Source: Mitsuokella multacida DSM 20544
Lineage (GTDB): Bacteria > Bacillota > Negativicutes > Selenomonadales > Selenomonadaceae
Assembly (NCBI RefSeq): GCF_000155955.1
Contig: NZ_GG697141.2
Coordinates: 310,001 to 374,000 of the forward strand
DNA length: 64,000 bases
Direction: 5' to 3'
Part shown: one piece after another, positions 15,454 through 48,321 of the stretch
Layout of the letters: the number at the start of each line of letters is the position of its first letter
Position numbering within the stretch: the first letter of the stretch is position 1
Made by a program: the position numbers and the translations under genes
The notes under the pieces: generated by a model
Databases searched by the model: none
Seen by the model: the letters and a program-made list of their open reading frames with translations, nothing else
What the model was told of the DNA's origin: nothing

Positions 15454-15645
15454 ATGGCAAATGTTTGCGAGTTTTGTGCAAAAGGCGAGCTGTCCGGCAA
15501 CAACGTCAGCCACTCCCACCTGAAGACGAAACGTTCCTGGAAGCCGAACATCCAGCGTGTCCGCGCTGTTGTTGACGGTGAGGTCAAACGTGTCAACGTC
15601 TGCACGCGCTGCCTGCGTTCTGGCAAGGTTCAGCGTGCCCTTTGA
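15454..15645 (+). CDS. rpmB: 50S ribosomal protein L28
   Basis: Ribosomal protein of 63 residues. It carries two CXXC pairs, CEFC near the start and CTRC near the end, the zinc-binding version of L28. The conserved KTKRSWKPNIQRV is clear. AAGGAGGTG lies 5 bases before the ATG. It is monocistronic with its own promoter and a strong terminator, and no rpmG is adjacent. Confidence 0.97.
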   Translation: MANVCEFCAKGELSGNNVSHSHLKTKRSWKPNIQRVRAVVDGEVKRVNVCTRCLRSGKVQRAL

Positions 15646-15674: not shown

Positions 15675-15722
15675 ATAAATAGAGCAGATAAGAGAAATCT
15701 TATCTGCTCTATTTATTTGTGT
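15675..15722 (+). terminator. Terminator after rpmB
   Basis: 19-bp stem (15675-15693 with 15698-15716; core AGAGCAGATAAGA) closed by a GAAA tetraloop, then T-rich sequence. Confidence 0.9.
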
Positions 15723-15741: not shown

Positions 15742-15811
15742 GTCAAAAATAGGGTACCTAACGCTCCGCGCAGCAGGCTGAAGCTTCGCTTATAGGTACC
15801 CTATTTTTGAC
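15742..15811. repeat. Variable-stem, conserved-loop hairpin, copy 1 of 4
   Basis: Arms 15742-15760 and 15793-15811 form a perfect 19-bp stem (GTCAAAAATAGGGTACCTA and its complement). The 32-base apical segment 15761-15792 starts ACGCTCCGCGCAG and ends CTTCGCTTA. Inside it CAG (15771-15773) can pair with CTG (15778-15780) around CAGG. The same loop recurs in three further copies with different stems. All four lie in one orientation between rpmB and the 3' end of pepF. Confidence 0.9.
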
Positions 15812-15840
15812 TGACGTTGGCAAGAAGCAAGCAACGGCAT

Positions 15841-15906
15841 CAAAAAGCAGGTGTCCAACGCTCCGCGCGGTAGGCCGAATCTGCGCTTATAGACACCTGC
15901 TTTTTG
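15841..15906. repeat. Variable-stem, conserved-loop hairpin, copy 2 of 4
   Basis: Arms CAAAAAGCAGGTGTC (15841-15855) and its complement (15892-15906) form a 15-bp perfect stem unrelated in sequence to copy 1. The apical segment is the most divergent: the inner pair CAG/CTG of the other copies is replaced by CGG/CCG (15868-15870, 15875-15877), a compensatory change that keeps the pairing. Flanks resemble the other copies (GGCAAGA before, GCTTACGAT after). Confidence 0.88.
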
Positions 15907-15935
15907 CTTACGATGAATAACGTGCAAGATAAGGC

Positions 15936-16003
15936 GCCAAAAGCCATTATCCAACGCTCCGCGCAGCGGGCTGAAGCTTCGCTTATGGATAATGGCTTTT
16001 GGC
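15936..16003. repeat. Variable-stem, conserved-loop hairpin, copy 3 of 4
   Basis: Arms GCCAAAAGCCATTATCC (15936-15952) and its complement (15987-16003) form a 17-bp perfect stem. The loop keeps AACGCTCCGCGCAG and GGCTGAAGCTTCGCTTAT. The base pair next to the loop is C-G here and T-A in copies 1 and 4, another paired change. Confidence 0.9.
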
Positions 16004-16051
16004 TTATGTTTTGCAATGTAAGACATTAAAATCAGTGAAACAAGGCGAGAC

Positions 16052-16119
16052 GCAAAAAGCTGGTATCTAACGCTCCGCGCAGCAGGCTGAAGCTGCGCTT
16101 ATAGATACCAGCTTTTGGC
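16052..16119. repeat. Variable-stem, conserved-loop hairpin, copy 4 of 4
   Basis: Arms 16052-16069 (GCAAAAAGCTGGTATCTA) and 16102-16119 pair over 18 positions with one mismatch. The 32-base loop equals copy 1 except AAGCTGC for AAGCTTC. It ends 12 bases from the pepF stop codon, so it could also terminate pepF transcripts arriving on the minus strand. Confidence 0.9.
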
Positions 16120-16130
16120 TTACGATATGA

Positions 16131-17927
16131 TCATTTTGTCAGTTGGTCAAGTTCATCGAGGCAGTCGGTGAATTTCTGGAAGGTGATCTGGAAGGGGGCG
16201 GGGGTGGTCATGTCGACGCCGGCGTGCTGGAGCAGGGGGATGGAGTAGTCGCTGCCGCCGCTGGCGAGGTAGGAGAGGTAGGCGTCCTGGGCTGGGGTTC
16301 CTTTTGTGCGCAGGTTGTGGGAGAGGGTCATGGCGGCGGCGTAGCCGGTTGCGTACTGGTAGACGTAGAAGGGGCGGTAGAAGTGGGGGATGCGGCTCCA
16401 CTCGGCGGCGAGCTCGGGGTCGAGGATGACGTTCTCGCCGTAATAGGTGCGGTTGAGCTGCATCCAGATGGATTCGAGCTTGTCGGCGGTCAGGACCTCG
16501 CCCTTCTCGACGGCGGCATGGGTCATGAGCTCGAATTCGGCGAAGAGCATCTGGCGGAAGACGGTGGTGCGGATCTGCTCGAGGTAGAGGTTGAGGTAGT
16601 AGAGCCGCTCCTCGCCTTTTGCGTGCTGGAGCATGTACTCGAGCAGCAGGTTCTCATTTGTCGTGGAGGCGACTTCGGCGCAGAAGATGGTGTACTCGGA
16701 GTTGACGAAGTCCTGCTTTTGGCTGCTGTACCAGCTGTGCATGGAGTGGCCCATCTCGTGGGCGAGGGTCGAGACGGACTCATAGGTATCGTTCCAGCTC
16801 ATGAGCACGAAGGGATGGACGCCGTAGACACCCCAGGAGTAAGCGCCGCTGCGCTTGCCCTGGTTCTCGCAGCGGTCGACCCAGCCGGATTCGAGTCCCT
16901 GGAAGAGGTCGTGCTCGTAGGTGCTGCCGAGCGGTGCGAGGGCTTCTTTGAGGATGCCTTTGGCCTGCTCGTAGCTGTAGGAAGTCTCGGGCTTCTTGAC
17001 GACGGGCACGTAGAGGTCGTACATGTGGACGGCGTCGAGTTTCAGCAGGCGCTTCTTGACCTCCATGTAGCGGTGCAGCGCAGGCAGGGCCGCGTGCGTC
17101 GCCTCAATCGCGCTGTCGTAGACGGCGAGCGGGATGTTGTTGGCGTCGAGGGCCGCCTCGCGCATGGTCGCATAGTGGCGCATGGAGGCGGTGAATTGGC
17201 TGCTCTTGACGGAAGCGCTGTAGAGCGAGGCAAAGGTGTTGCGGAACGAACGATACGTCGAAAACAGTTTCGTGAAGGCATCCTTGCGGACGTTCTGGTC
17301 CGCACTGCGCAGGAAGTTCATGTAGCGGCTCTCGGAGAGTGACGTGAGCTTGCCGTCTTCGCCAAGCGTGTCCGGGAACTTGAGGTCGGCGTTGACCATG
17401 ACGGTGTAGGTGTCACGCGGGGCGCTGCGCAGCTCGCCGGTGCGCGCGAGGAAGGCCTCCTGTTCCGGCGTCAGGATGTGCGCCTTCATGCGCAGGAGCT
17501 CCTGCAGGCGGAAGCGGTATTTCGCGAGGCCCGGCAGGGCGTCTGGAAGGCTCTTCAGTGTATCTTCCGGCAGTGCGAGCAGCTCCGGCTCGATGAAGGC
17601 CGTCGCCGCGCCGACCTTGTCAAGTAGCGGCATGACGCTCGCGGCATCTGCCTGATGCTCCTGATTGGCCGTGTCGGTGTCCGCCATCATGCGGGCCCAG
17701 GCGAAGACCGCAGAGAGCGCAATCTCCATCTCGTCCTGCTTGGTCAGGCAGTCGAGCAGTGCCTGCGGGGCGTGGAGCCGCCCCTTGAATGACTGGATGG
17801 CAGCGAGTTCAGCGGGGATGCCATCGCGGGCCTTCTGCCAGTCTTCTCGGGTGGCGTAGATATCGGAAAGCTGCCATTTCTCTGCAGCGGGGCAGTCCTT
17901 GCGTGCGGGAATCATCTTGTCTTTCAT
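16131..17927 (-). CDS. pepF: Oligoendopeptidase F (M3 metallopeptidase)
   Basis: Cytoplasmic zinc peptidase that trims short peptides. About 598 residues, the usual PepF length. The zinc motif HEMGHSMHSW and the downstream glutamate region (EVASTTNE) are present. I start at the ATG ending at 17927 (MKDKMIPARK) because AGAAAGG lies 9 bases before it. The ATG at 17936 touches that site, and the open frame beyond it runs through the divergent promoter region into the next gene. Transcribed alone, convergent with the repeat array. Confidence 0.93.
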   Translation of the reverse strand: MKDKMIPARKDCPAAEKWQLSDIYATREDWQKARDGIPAELAAIQSFKGRLHAPQALLDCLTKQDEMEIALSAVFAWARMMADTDTANQEHQADAASVMPLLDKVGAATAFIEPELLALPEDTLKSLPDALPGLAKYRFRLQELLRMKAHILTPEQEAFLARTGELRSAPRDTYTVMVNADLKFPDTLGEDGKLTSLSESRYMNFLRSADQNVRKDAFTKLFSTYRSFRNTFASLYSASVKSSQFTASMRHYATMREAALDANNIPLAVYDSAIEATHAALPALHRYMEVKKRLLKLDAVHMYDLYVPVVKKPETSYSYEQAKGILKEALAPLGSTYEHDLFQGLESGWVDRCENQGKRSGAYSWGVYGVHPFVLMSWNDTYESVSTLAHEMGHSMHSWYSSQKQDFVNSEYTIFCAEVASTTNENLLLEYMLQHAKGEERLYYLNLYLEQIRTTVFRQMLFAEFELMTHAAVEKGEVLTADKLESIWMQLNRTYYGENVILDPELAAEWSRIPHFYRPFYVYQYATGYAAAMTLSHNLRTKGTPAQDAYLSYLASGGSDYSIPLLQHAGVDMTTPAPFQITFQKFTDCLDELDQLTK

Positions 17928-18014
17928 CTTATTCATCCTTTCTATCGTTGCGATTCTGAGATTGCTGCTTTCATTATAGCATAAATCGCAGGGGCAGGAC
18001 TCCTGCGGATTTCT

Positions 18015-18043
18015 TTGCCGCAGGCTGCAAGGCATGCTACAAT
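18015..18043 (+). promoter_or_regulatory. Promoter for the B12/radical-SAM gene
   Basis: TTGCCG (18015-18020), a 17-base spacer and TACAAT (18038-18043). Transcription would start near 18050, so the in-frame ATG at 18034 cannot be the translation start. Confidence 0.65.
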
Positions 18044-18072
18044 GGAGGAAAAGAAGCGGAGGAGTGACTGTC

Positions 18073-19875
18073 GTGCAAGCAGCAGGGAAAGCAGAGAAAA
18101 GAGAAGGAAATGGGATGGAGCAGGGGGATATCCTCTGGCTCGCCGTCAACGCGAAGTACTCGCATACATCATTGGCCGTGCGCTATCTGCGTGAATGCGT
18201 GCCGGGCTCGTCTATCCTGGAGCTCACGATCAACCACCAGCTGCTCGCGGCGCTCGGCGAGATCTACGAGCGGCAGCCGCGAGTGCTCGGCATTTCGTGC
18301 TACATCTGGAACATCGAGATGGTCAAGGACATCCTGCGCCTCTTGCCAGCCGCATTGCCCGATACCATCATCGTCTGTGGCGGCCCGGAGGTCTCGTACG
18401 ACACGGCCGCCTTCCTCGAAGAATTCCCGATGGTTGACTTTGTCGTGCGTGGCGAGGGCGAGGAGGCCGTGCTAAGGCTCATCGAGCGGCTGCGTGCGGT
18501 CGGCTTTGCCAAGGCGCGGGCAGCTGAGGTCAGCCGCGCGGGCAGCCTGCCGGGCATTGCCATGCGGCGCGAGGACGGCAGCATCGACGAGAGCACGGCC
18601 GTGACGGTCGCGGATTTCTCAGAAGTGCCATTTGCCTACCGCGAAGAGGAGATGGAGCCTATCAAGGAGCGTATCCTCTACTATGAGACATCGCGCGGCT
18701 GTCCGTTCTCGTGCGCCTACTGCCTCTCGTGTGCGACGGCCGGCGTGCGCTTCCTGCCGCTCGCGCGCGTCTTCCGCGAGCTCGACTTCTTCGTGCGCCA
18801 TGACGTGCGCCAGGTCAAGTTCGTCGACCGGACCTTCAATGCTAAGAAATCGCATTTCCTGCCCATCCTGCAGTACCTCGTCGACCTGCCGGACAGCGTG
18901 CGCACGAATTTCCACTTCGAAGTCGCCATTGACTACCTCGATGAAGAGGTGCTCGCGACACTCGCGCGCCTGCCACGCGGCCGCGTGCAGCTTGAGATCG
19001 GCATCCAGTCGACGAATGAGAAGACACTGCAGGCCGTCTCGCGCATCAACCACTGGGAGCAGATTGCCTCGCATATCCGGCGCATCCTCTCATTCCACAA
19101 TATGCACCTGCACGTCGACCTCATCATCGGCCTGCCCGGCGAGGGCATGGCGTCGTTTGCGCAGTCGTTCAACGACGTCTATGCGCTGCAGGCCGACATG
19201 CTGCAGCTCGGCTTCCTCAAATTCCTCAAGGGCGCCTCGATGATGAATCTCGTGCAGCCGTACGGCTACTGCTACATGCCCATGGCACCGTACGAGGTCC
19301 TCGTGTCAGATGCCCTGACGTACAGCGAGATTCGCTGGTTCCACAGTTTCGAAGCCGTCTTCGAATATTACTACAACGCGGGCCGCTGCCGCCATACGGC
19401 CGCCTACCTGATTGCCTCGCAGGAAGCGGGCGATGCCTTCGCCTTCTGGAAGCGCTTTACCGACTGGTGGGAGGCGCATGGGTATCATAAGGTCGGCCAT
19501 GCGACCAAAGACCTCTACGGCCTGCTGCGCGACTTCGCAGAGGATGCCTACCAGATTGCGGCGGCGCTGCTTGACAATCTGCTGCGCTTCGACGCGCTGA
19601 TGGCCGATGGCGGCCGCATCCGGCCCGTCTATCTCGACTGGGACATGGAGAAGCATCAGCAGGAGACCGCTCCGTTCTGGCGCAGCGAGAGGCCGCGCGC
19701 CTACCTGCCCGGCTTCACCTTCACGAACTGGCGCGCCGTGCGCGGCTGCTACCACATTGAGTTCTTTGCCTACGATATGCGGCGGGTGCGCGAGGGCGTC
19801 GTCGAAGCGCGCGAGATGGCATTGCTCTTCGACTTTAGGGGCCCTGATGTGACATGCCAGGAAATCGTGCTATAA
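18073..19875 (+). CDS. B12-binding and radical SAM protein, DUF4080 type
   Basis: About 600 residues. An N-terminal cobalamin-binding-like region (LAVNAKYSHTSLAVRYLRE, then CGGPEVSYD) is followed by a radical SAM core with RGCPFSCAYCLSC (CX3CX2C) and a DUF4080-type C-terminal region. Substrate unknown. GTG 18073 has GGAGGAG 8 bases upstream; ATG 18115, with AAGGA 6 bases upstream, is an alternative and coincides with the start of the conserved region. The stop codon overlaps the -10 box of the next gene. The PduO-type adenosyltransferase at 12.6 kb shows that corrinoids are handled. Confidence 0.82.
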   Translation: MQAAGKAEKREGNGMEQGDILWLAVNAKYSHTSLAVRYLRECVPGSSILELTINHQLLAALGEIYERQPRVLGISCYIWNIEMVKDILRLLPAALPDTIIVCGGPEVSYDTAAFLEEFPMVDFVVRGEGEEAVLRLIERLRAVGFAKARAAEVSRAGSLPGIAMRREDGSIDESTAVTVADFSEVPFAYREEEMEPIKERILYYETSRGCPFSCAYCLSCATAGVRFLPLARVFRELDFFVRHDVRQVKFVDRTFNAKKSHFLPILQYLVDLPDSVRTNFHFEVAIDYLDEEVLATLARLPRGRVQLEIGIQSTNEKTLQAVSRINHWEQIASHIRRILSFHNMHLHVDLIIGLPGEGMASFAQSFNDVYALQADMLQLGFLKFLKGASMMNLVQPYGYCYMPMAPYEVLVSDALTYSEIRWFHSFEAVFEYYYNAGRCRHTAAYLIASQEAGDAFAFWKRFTDWWEAHGYHKVGHATKDLYGLLRDFAEDAYQIAAALLDNLLRFDALMADGGRIRPVYLDWDMEKHQQETAPFWRSERPRAYLPGFTFTNWRAVRGCYHIEFFAYDMRRVREGVVEAREMALLFDFRGPDVTCQEIVL

Positions 19876-36884: not shown

Positions 36885-36904
36885 AATATACATCAAGTAA
36901 AATG

Positions 36905-37146
36905 CGAGGAATGAGAGAAGTAATCCCTGAGACTTCCTTGAAGAGAGCGCTGGGCTGGTGTGACAGCGCAGGGAGAGGGGACGAAATACACTCAGGAGCA
37001 GCAGGCTGAAGAGAGTAGGCCCCGCCGGAATGCCACCGTTATCAGAGGCTAGGATATGTCAGTATCCGAAGTGAGAGGCTTGCGTCAGCAAGCAGGGTGG
37101 TACCACGGGTATATCGGCTCGTCCCTGTAGAGGGGCGGGCTTTTTC
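36905..37146 (+). promoter_or_regulatory. T-box leader, tyrosine specifier
   Basis: tRNA-sensing leader. Stem I closes with CCTGAG (36926-36931) and CTCAGG (36991-36996) and has the distal GGCTGGTG loop. The specifier loop reads GAAA-TAC-A, with TAC at 36987-36989, a tyrosine codon. The T-box sequence AGGGTGGTACCACGGG is at 37094-37109. The terminator pairs GCTCGTCCCT (37117-37126) with 37131-37140 and ends in TTTTT. Uncharged tRNA-Tyr should favour the antiterminator and switch on aroF-tyrA. The specifier reading is mine; the T-box itself is unmistakable. Confidence 0.93.
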
Positions 37147-46189: not shown

Positions 46190-46600
46190 ATGATACCAGG
46201 TGAATTCTTCTTGAAGGAAGGGGACATCGTACTCAATGTCGGGCGGACGGTCCGGAAACTTGTCGTCACGAATCTCGGCGACCGTCCCGTTCAGGTCGGC
46301 GCACATTATCACTTCTTTGAGGTGAACCGTTGCTTGAGCTTTGCGCGCGGGGAGGCATTCGGCATGCGCCTCGATATCCCGTCCGGCACATCCGTGCGCT
46401 TTGAGCCGGGCGAGCAGAAGACTGTTGCGCTCGTCTCGCTGCGCGGTAGGAATCGCTGCTTCGGCTTCAATGGCCTGACAATGGGGCCGGCTGGTGACTT
46501 TGAGCGCGAGGAAGCCTTGCGCCATGCGAAAGAACGCGGCTTTGCCGGAGCAGCCGATGTGGAGACGGAGAATCGAAAAAAGAAGGAGGGCGATGTCTGA
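46190..46600 (+). CDS. ureB: Urease beta subunit
   Basis: 136 residues, starting [16 protein letters not shown], the usual N-terminus of this subunit. [16 protein letters not shown] and [13 protein letters not shown] are conserved. ATG 46190 is favoured by GAAGG eight bases upstream and by family alignment; the ATG at 46169 would add seven residues. The C-terminus has a basic extension ([10 protein letters not shown]). The stop overlaps the ureC start by one base. Confidence 0.96.
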
Positions 46601-48321
46601 TGAGTTACACGATCAGCCGGGAAAAGTACGCGGCGATGTATGGCCCGACGACAGGCGACAAGGTGCGACTGGCGGATACTGACCTCGTGCTCGAGATCGA
46701 GAAGGATTATACGAGCTACGGCGATGAAGCAAAGTTTGGTGGAGGCAAGACGCTGCGTGACGGCATGGGACAGGCCTCGGAGATCACGAGCGTTGGTGGT
46801 GCACTGGACCTCGTCCTGACGAATGCCATCGTCATGGACCCTGTGCAGGGGATTGTCAAGGCGGATATCGGCATCAAGGACGGCCGCATTGTCGGCCTTG
46901 GCAAGGCGGGCAATCCCGATATCATGGAAGGCGTGACGCCGGGACTGACAGTCGGTGCATCGACGGAAGCACTGGCCGCTGAGGGACTCATCGTGACGCC
47001 AGGCGGACTCGATACCCACATCCATTTCATCAGTCCGCAGCAGATCGAGACGGCGCTTTACAGCGGCATCACGACGATGATCGGTGGCGGCACGGGGCCA
47101 GCTGACGGCACGAATGCTACGACCTGCACGCCAGGGCCTTGGAATCTCCGAGAGATGTTGCGGGCAGCTGATGCGTATCCGATGAACCTCGGCTTTCTCG
47201 GCAAGGGCAACTGCTCAAGTCTGCCACCGCTTGCTGAGCAGATTGAGGCAGGCGCGATGGGCCTCAAGATCCACGAGGACTGGGGCGCGACGCCAGCCGT
47301 CATCGATGCCTGCCTGCGCGTATCGGATGCCTATGATGTCCAGACGGCCATCCATACGGACACGCTCAATGAGGCAGGCTGTGTCGAGGACACGCTCGAT
47401 GCCATCGGCGGTCGGACCATCCACACGTATCACACGGAGGGGGCCGGCGGCGGCCATGCTCCGGACATCATACGGGCGGCAGGCTTTGAGAACATCCTGC
47501 CATCGTCGACAAATCCGACGATGCCTTTTACCAAGAACACACTCGATGAACATCTTGATATGCTCATGGTATGCCATCACCTCGACAGCCGCATCCCCGA
47601 GGACGTGGCCTTTGCCGATTCGCGCATCCGTCCTGAGACGATTGCCGCGGAAGACGTCCTGCATGACATGGGCATCTTCTCGATGATGAGCTCCGATTCG
47701 CAGGCCATGGGCCGCGTCGGTGAAGTCATCGTGCGCACGTGGCAGACGGCGGATAAGATGAAGAAGGAGCGCGGCCGCCTTTCGGAGGAATTGGGCGAGA
47801 ACGATAATTTCCGCATCCTCCGCTATCTTTCGAAATATACCATCAACCCGGCCATCACGCACGGCCTCTCGGCAGAAGTCGGCTCCATTGAAAAGGGCAA
47901 GCTGGCCGATCTCGTGCTTTGGAATCCTGCTTTCTTCGGCGTGCGCCCAGAGCTCATCATCAAGGGTGGCTTCATCATCGCTTCGAAGATGGGGGACCCG
48001 AATGCCTCCATCCCGACGCCAGAGCCCGTCTTTTACCGCCCAATGTTCGGTGCGGCAGCTGGTGCGCGTCATGATACCTGCATCACCTTTGTATCAAAGG
48101 CGGCTTATGACGCCAATATCAAGGAAAGACTGGGCCTCATGAAGCAGGTACGTCCTGTCTCGCATTGCCGTGACATCACGAAGAAGGACATGCATTTCAA
48201 CGACAAGACGCCATCCATCACCGTCAATCCAGAGACATATGAAGTCCGCGTCGATGGCGCGAAGATCACGAGCAAGCCAGCAGAGCAGCTGCCACTGGCT
48301 CAGCTCTATCATCTGTTCTGA
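46600..48321 (+). CDS. ureC: Urease alpha (catalytic) subunit
   Basis: Nickel hydrolase converting urea to ammonia and carbamate. 573 residues, full length. Nickel ligands lie in [26 protein letters not shown] and [11 protein letters not shown]. The carbamylated lysine is in [12 protein letters not shown], and the mobile flap [20 protein letters not shown] contains the catalytic histidine. AGAAGGAGGG precedes the ATG. All active-site residues appear intact. Confidence 0.98.

Follow-up and report, generated by a model that had tools for sequence, protein, structure and literature searches.

Why would four hairpins with nearly the same tip, each on a different stem, stand in a row between two bacterial genes? 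The question is raised by a stretch of 64,000 nucleotides from Mitsuokella multacida DSM 20544 (hereafter the window, whose coordinates are used unless a locus is named), a member of the Selenomonadaceae with a genome of 2.58 Mb. The hairpins are direct repeats spanning positions 15742-16119, with start-to-start distances of 97, 96, and 116 nucleotides; they share, with few changes, the 34-nt apex AACGCTCCGCGCAGCAGGCTGAAGCTTCGCTTAT, and their stems differ (Table 1). The answer that we favour, with a probability of about 0.5, is that they are four tandem, internally deleted short members of a dispersed, non-autonomous mobile repeat of the Selenomonadaceae, recognised by its shape as a folded single strand.

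Table 1. Coordinates of the array and its surroundings in the window, and of the bounded units found at a Selenomonas ruminantium WCT3 locus.
Feature	Position	Strand	Description
rpmB-like ORF (presumed)	15454..15645	+	63 aa; upstream of the array
Terminator-like hairpin after rpmB	15675..15716	+	19 bp, T-rich tail; separate, not a family member
Short copy c1	15742..15811	-	19-bp stem; arms 15742-15760/15793-15811, 19/19 paired; structured 34-nt apex 15760-15793
GCGNAGC motif, 3' strand of internal loop, c1	15763..15769	-	equivalents in c2-c4: 15860-15866, 15956-15962, 16072-16078
GCGNAGC motif, 5' strand of internal loop, c1	15783..15789	-	equivalents in c2-c4: 15880-15886 (GCGCAGA), 15976-15982, 16092-16098
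Short copy c2	15841..15906	-	15-bp stem; arms 15841-15855/15892-15906, 15/15 paired; apex 15857-15890
Short copy c3	15936..16003	-	18-bp stem; arms 15936-15953/15986-16003, 18/18 paired; apex 15953-15986
Short copy c4	16052..16119	-	arms 16052-16069/16102-16119, 17/18 paired; apex 16069-16102
pepF-like ORF (presumed)	16131..18149	-	convergent to the rpmB-like ORF, with the array between the two; start approximate
CAGTTTGTAGG-bounded units, locus L120	4570-5124, 9090-9656, 14176-14732, 15914-16462		

A preliminary description of the window had proposed four hairpins with a conserved apical sequence and covarying stems, and this is borne out by the pairing of the arms and by folding against dinucleotide shuffles. 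The z-scores range from -4.9 to -6.0 for the plus strand folded as RNA and from -5.1 to -6.9 for the minus strand folded as DNA, and in each of these eight folds none of 200 shuffles folds as well. For c2, a longer pairing of the arms was also detected (83% complementary). The replacement of the inner CAG/CTG by CGG/CCG in this copy, which turns an A-T pair of the apical mini-stem into G-C, is equally real. The change reported for the closing pair, from T-A to C-G, holds in part: copies 1 and 4 have T-A at this position and copy 3 has C-G, whereas copy 2 has an unpaired C.A mismatch. Similarly, the four copies do share one orientation within the array, but elsewhere in the host copies lie on both strands.

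The two flanking ORFs converge on the array. The first we take, following the preliminary description, to be rpmB-like, and the second, which carries an M3-type HEMGH motif, is presumably pepF-like. Such a position would suit terminators acting in both directions, or insulators, whose loop has been decorated and which have multiplied where genes converge, and so would the A-tract/T-tract outer parts found in all four array stems and the TTTTTT that follows a defective copy in Mitsuokella jalaludinii (L053). Yet rpmB already has its own terminator-like hairpin, which is also present in M. jalaludinii; the other six host copies in the covariance model described below are without such outer tracts; copies occur in all four gene arrangements; and a conserved apex is unnecessary for termination. 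Termination thus makes a very unlikely account of the family, and it is speculative that the A/T-tract stems also act as a bidirectional terminator between the convergent genes of the window. The terminator scan that was run, which covers loops of 3-8 nucleotides, matched the rpmB hairpin and one 8-pair part of c3; because of this limit, the 34-nt apex is beyond its reach.

The array does lie between rpmB and pepF, as first described, but the element is not specific to this locus; the array is one place at which a dispersed repeat stands in tandem. The covariance search that had been proposed yields further copies in the host and in relatives: a model built from ten host short copies gave 11 matches in the host and 8 in M. 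jalaludinii DSM 13811 (G001), some of them defective, and none in the third species of the genus Mitsuokella. Outside the genus, one match each was obtained from S. ruminantium WCT3 (G149) and from G005 (uncultured Mitsuokella), among 189 genomes of the family and under stricter filters. In a scan of species genomes comprising 25 loci, stems with 14-18 of 18 pairs were found at two M. jalaludinii loci, one in S. ruminantium WCT3 and one in an uncultured Mitsuokella; 9/18 pairs were found in another uncultured Mitsuokella, and 2-7/18 at the other 20 loci. The rpmB-pepF array itself is orthologous in M. jalaludinii, where it has three copies instead of four (c4 is without counterpart) and stems with compensating changes. 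At one other site (g1 in the host, Mj_g in M. jalaludinii), the 34-nt apex is identical in both species and several stem pairs differ on both sides. Of the 18 outer pairs compared in ten short copies of the host, 16 have changed on both sides, and the outer helix shows no one-sided change. An alignment of 16 short copies, which omits the degenerate host copy L058 and the defective M. jalaludinii copies L053 and L055, has three pairs with one such change each.

Several short copies adjoin a longer repeat. This long form is a single nested hairpin of ~200 nt, in which a variable outer stem and a first internal loop are followed by further variable stems and conserved internal loops up to an apex, GTTCAAGCGNAGCGCGTT, likely a local hairpin. 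The short form (~75 nt) consists of the outer stem and the first internal loop, with the upper part replaced by a 3-bp CAG-CCTG-CTG cap. When the consensus of the short loop was compared with the two corresponding strands of 30 Mitsuokella long copies, 11/14 and 11/13 positions were identical, which was reached in none of 100,000 shuffles. Comparison of the sequences thus identifies the array as four tandem short, internally deleted members of a dispersed Selenomonadaceae repeat family: the units first described are real, but each is what remains of a nested hairpin that is much larger when complete.

The apex motif of the long form does not occur in the 64-kb window. It is found in the host 15 times at up to 1 mismatch and 17 times at 2, and in M. 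jalaludinii 15 and 16 times, respectively; a reversed pattern used as control gives 2 (host) and 3 (M. jalaludinii) matches at 2 mismatches and none at 1. Across the order, in a sample of one genome per species, 40 of 181 genomes hold the motif at up to 1 mismatch, with 602 matches; all 40 belong to one family, and they represent 11 of 30 genera. At least five copies are present in 26 of these genomes (up to 61), two in four genomes, and one in ten, where the single matches may be due to chance. The reversed pattern gives a single match in four genomes, none of them among the 26 rich in copies. Two genomes of genus g6, G026 and G035, are free of the motif. The nested architecture is disturbed in several individual copies. 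At position 16042 (+) of an S. ruminantium WCT3 locus (L120), the apex of one copy points the opposite way to its outer loops, as though the inner stem arms had recombined and flipped it. At three loci of genus g6 (L180, L219, and L258) the nested hairpin is interrupted by another repeat, containing CGTCCCAAGAACACGAGCG, and at two loci of G005 (L209 and L211) by one containing CTTCGGCTCTTGGGACG; both interruptions resemble a further repeat lodged inside the hairpin repeat.

The shared fold is visible in the alignments of both forms. The 16 short copies, read on the minus strand, have 25 pairs with 97.8% of cells paired and 17 pairs changed on both sides, whereas controls with slid arms give 35-45% and 8-10 pairs. 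For the long form, of which 26 of the 32 Mitsuokella copies were aligned, there are 53 pairs with 94.9% of cells paired and 42 changed on both sides, against 38-50% and 15-25 pairs in the slid controls. Covariation extends into the apex of the short copies, where pair 6-30 is C-G in ten copies and T-A in six with no exception, pair 10-26 is G-C in 15 and A-T in one, and pair 15-22 is A-T in 14 and G-C in two. Between pairs 6-30 and 10-26, two facing 5'-GC-GNA-GC-3' strands of the minus strand enclose a symmetric 3x3 internal loop. In this loop the opposed bases are G.A and A.G in 26/26 long copies each, and the middle N.N occurs in nine combinations among the same 26. In a loop of this kind the G.A pairs are presumably sheared. 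It had been argued at first that selection acts on structure in the stems and on sequence in the loop. The stems do covary, but structure is conserved too in the apical part, which holds pairs that covary and a GNA/GNA internal loop whose two N positions are free.

The same heptamer, d(GCGNAGC) with N any base, is described as an ultrastable DNA mini-hairpin in the portion of PMC4686876 that treats it, and two local mini-hairpins were considered as the main model for the apex. They were rejected: at the 5' motif, 7/16 short copies would have T-G or C-A as the local pair, and at the 3' motif 7/16 would have A-C or G-T, whereas the cross-strand pair has no exceptions. Covariation thus favours pairing across the internal loop.

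Could such palindromes be kept by replication alone, without any selection on structure? Template switching, by which one arm is corrected from the other, would explain why the outer helix of the host copies has no one-sided change (even though three pairs have one each among the 16 copies), and why a given site has different stems in different species. This would, however, also remove the G.A, N.N, and A.G mismatches of the internal loop, where G.A and A.G are conserved throughout the 26 long copies, and palindrome correction is therefore unlikely to be the main cause. Within the loop, isolated pairs covary as well, and the apex is conserved across loci where the stems are not. Furthermore, in the outer stem of the genus-g6 type, bulged bases are mostly on one arm, with 41 on the 5' arm and 7 on the 3' arm in the 47 copies that pass the motif and score filters. 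Neutral upkeep of this sort is accordingly held to be improbable.

Which strand folds can be read from the imperfect pairs, since G-T and A-C would be expected to be equally frequent if only DNA complementarity mattered. On the strand carrying GTTCAAGCGNAGCGCGTT, which is the minus strand in the window, G-T exceeds A-C by 168:10 in 55 of 69 copies, mostly of genus g6, where the pairs had been selected with an RNA-energy consensus computed on that very alignment. Three columns hold 113 of the 168 G-T cells; an invariant apical pair, itself doubtful, accounts for 55 of these, and two other columns for 58. Without these three columns the ratio is 55:10, with G-T in 19 columns and A-C in eight. 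The 26 Mitsuokella long copies give 59:21, of which 15 of the 59 fall in one column; leaving this column out, 44:21 remains (p 0.006), with 27 G-T columns against 13 A-C columns. A looser count gives 62:24 in 37 copies, after seven of 44 central-motif matches without stems were left out. The outer stems alone give 20:9 (p 0.06), and the short copies, read on the minus strand, 5:1. As the copies are related, these cells are not independent of one another. The excess of G-T indicates that the folding strand is probably the minus strand in the window; the asymmetry is compatible with single-stranded DNA and with RNA alike.

A structured non-coding RNA is for this reason a possible, if rather unlikely, reading. 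The minus strand would be transcribed, and the hairpin RNA would bind a protein or be itself a small RNA, the copies being dispersed RNA genes or RNA-bearing insertions. Conserved internal loops joined by variable stems are typical of structured RNA, pairs of the G-U type are favoured on one strand, and one long copy folds strongly as RNA (z -8.1), though also as DNA (z -7.3). On the other hand, G-T or A-C is found in just 6/316 cells of the outer stems of 18 short copies, which is low for an RNA helix; there are up to 61 copies per genome; and the lack of a consistent orientation to genes among 69 copies is at odds with an mRNA leader or tail. No Rfam family speaks for an RNA either: as the first account supposed, no match to a known family was obtained, since nothing in Rfam 15 rises above the gathering threshold for the array, nor for long copies in 17 loci. 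A permissive search gives sub-gathering matches to microRNA families, with 23 of 54 bits for an S. ruminantium short copy and 30 of 90 for a long copy (L151). Elsewhere in the window, Rfam detects a T-box leader at 36898-37129 (+) with 123 bits, and 5_ureB_sRNA with 86 bits at 46753-47053 (-), on the strand facing the beginning of a 573-aa ORF (46600-48321, +). This ORF resembles, we assume, a urease alpha subunit, and the sRNA match may thus merely reflect urease coding sequence. The proposal that the hairpins are a functional RNA or a single-stranded-DNA site remains supported as the likely kind of thing, and of the two the folded DNA strand of a mobile repeat is the reading we pursue here.

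In the genome, the copies act like a non-autonomous mobile repeat: they are dispersed, have no consistent gene orientation, are missing from empty sites in related species, and form tandem and inverted clusters. Relative to the genes on their left and right, the 69 copies are arranged ++ in 26 cases, -- in 17, -+ in 14, and +- in 12, which leaves no cis-regulatory arrangement; as the simple ORF rule drops ORFs over the hairpin, this count cannot itself show that copies are intergenic. In three single-contig genomes, inspected for a replication-strand bias, the copies are on mixed strands. Of 13 relatives compared at the L149 site, nine have a spacer of 7-34 nt with neither arm of the stem, another (G032) has 85 nt and may retain a remnant, and three carry a copy, full or deleted, whose stems differ. 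Among five relatives at the L193 site, one is empty (8-nt spacer), one is filled, and three have unrelated sequence of 75-86 nt with other hairpins. These comparisons cover one genome of each species, and no insertion was seen within a species. The possibility that stems are copied from the target or from a palindrome already there was rejected for these two sites, where the stems are part of what is inserted. At a third site, in Mitsuokella, a relative has a 21-bp stem, with one T-G pair, that encloses an 8-nt loop; this is read as an internal deletion, with an empty palindrome as the alternative there.

As for the ends, inverted sequences resembling CTATGATAAATGTTACGG flank 12 of 61 copies on both sides (L166, L167, L170, L171, L173, L182, L183, L185, L190, L192, L199, and L222) and a further seven on one side, at up to 5 edits and without a chance control. 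In S. ruminantium WCT3, four units of ~560 bp have inverted repeats resembling CAGTTTGTAGG at their ends, next to most of which TA is found; three contain two inverted nested hairpins and one contains a long and a short copy (Table 1). The two kinds of ends are unrelated to each other. In the Mitsuokella copies no common end was seen by eye, and no consistent target-site duplication was found, nor is one evident at a filled site compared with its empty relatives. Copies also occur as tandem and inverted pairs. One block made of a short and a long copy is inverted between the host (L115, 7996-8475) and M. jalaludinii (L119, 4540-4846).

What might move these copies? A RAYT transposase as general partner was rejected. 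At E<=1e-10, a threshold that could miss a very diverged Y1 relative, Y1_Tnp (PF01797) matches in 61/181 genomes, but there is no match in several that are rich in copies: G027 (57 copies), G149 (45), G037 (40), G158 (32), and G033 (23). A RAYT-type system is therefore not the general explanation. Plasmid and phage collections did not reveal a carrier: the array gave just matches at E 0.4 (one plasmid and two phages), a genus-g6 long copy had no match in either collection, nor did an S. ruminantium long copy in the plasmids, and viral contigs matching two motif patterns had no complementary flanks by eye.

The dispersed mobile repeat, then, would work as follows. From conservation and covariation, the selected unit is most likely the folded minus strand, and the feature recognised would be the GNA/GNA internal loop together with the AT and TT that lie unpaired beside it, set between stems of free sequence. 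A putative trans-acting protein would bind the hairpin as folded single-stranded DNA, then move or multiply the copies. That stems keep their shape while their letters are free suggests that something in the cell recognises the shape. More tentatively, we propose a shape-reading mobility system for folded single-stranded DNA, in which a putative protein, neither a Y1 transposase nor an integron integrase, would read the GNA/GNA loop within arbitrary stems and would have spread hundreds of nested-hairpin copies across the Selenomonadaceae, with minimal 75-nt versions multiplying in tandem in Mitsuokella. Dispersed bacterial repeats are usually recognised by sequence; in this family the stem letters are largely free, and what persists from locus to locus, and from one species or genus to another, is the internal loop and the overall shape. 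Should a protein indeed read the shape, the natural minimal copies (stem, loop, and cap) define its substrate, and the family offers a test bed both for shape-based recognition of single strands and for the multiplication of repeats without a known transposase.

How does this compare with known systems? In the open-licence literature no description of such a hairpin repeat family was found, and it is apparently undescribed so far. REP/BIME elements are dispersed palindromes in many copies and both orientations, with tandem or inverted clusters and a mismatched hairpin, and their stems are conserved in sequence. The present family shares all but this last trait with REP/BIME and RAYT systems; it differs in that its stems vary from copy to copy, the conserved element is an internal loop, and Y1_Tnp was not found in several copy-rich genomes. 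With MITEs it shares dispersal, non-autonomy, and empty sites, and some copies are inside units with inverted ends; it differs in that the two kinds of ends are unrelated, no common end was seen in the Mitsuokella copies, the conserved part is central rather than terminal, and the stems covary. Compared by description only, OTH-22-1 is also similar, as a hairpin suggested to act as single-stranded DNA with RYYYAAC at one end (PMC8632094); the main text of that article names the Selenomonadales once, for a gltD motif, and has neither Mitsuokella nor Selenomonas. The mini-hairpins of PMC4686876, as far as they are covered there, have in common with the family the heptamer with its free N and a stable single-stranded DNA fold, but here covariation pairs two such strands across an internal loop.

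The nearest functional analogy would be the integron attC site, which, in the sections of PMC2727003 devoted to it, is recognised as a folded single strand of 57-142 nt with little sequence conservation and extrahelical bases on one arm. By that outline the likeness includes the folded strand, the extrahelical bases on one arm, an unpaired spacer, and a variable terminal structure. Could the hairpins be attC-like recombination sites outright, folded from the bottom strand? Their fold is strand-asymmetric, the bulges of the genus-g6 outer stem are mostly one-sided, and RYYYAACGYT stands at the inner end of the stem in 16/16 short copies. Against this, the matching GTTRRRY box is missing in all 16; among the long copies GTTRRRY is found in 4/26 and RYYYAAC on the other side in 0/26; the stem continues outside the box; and no cassette genes lie between the four array copies. 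We regard it as most unlikely, the family differing from attC as outlined in that source by the missing paired R boxes and cassettes, by an internal loop conserved in sequence, and by lengths of ~75 and ~200 nt. The family probably belongs with the dispersed palindromic, probably mobile repeats, and what is new is that shape, not stem sequence, is conserved.
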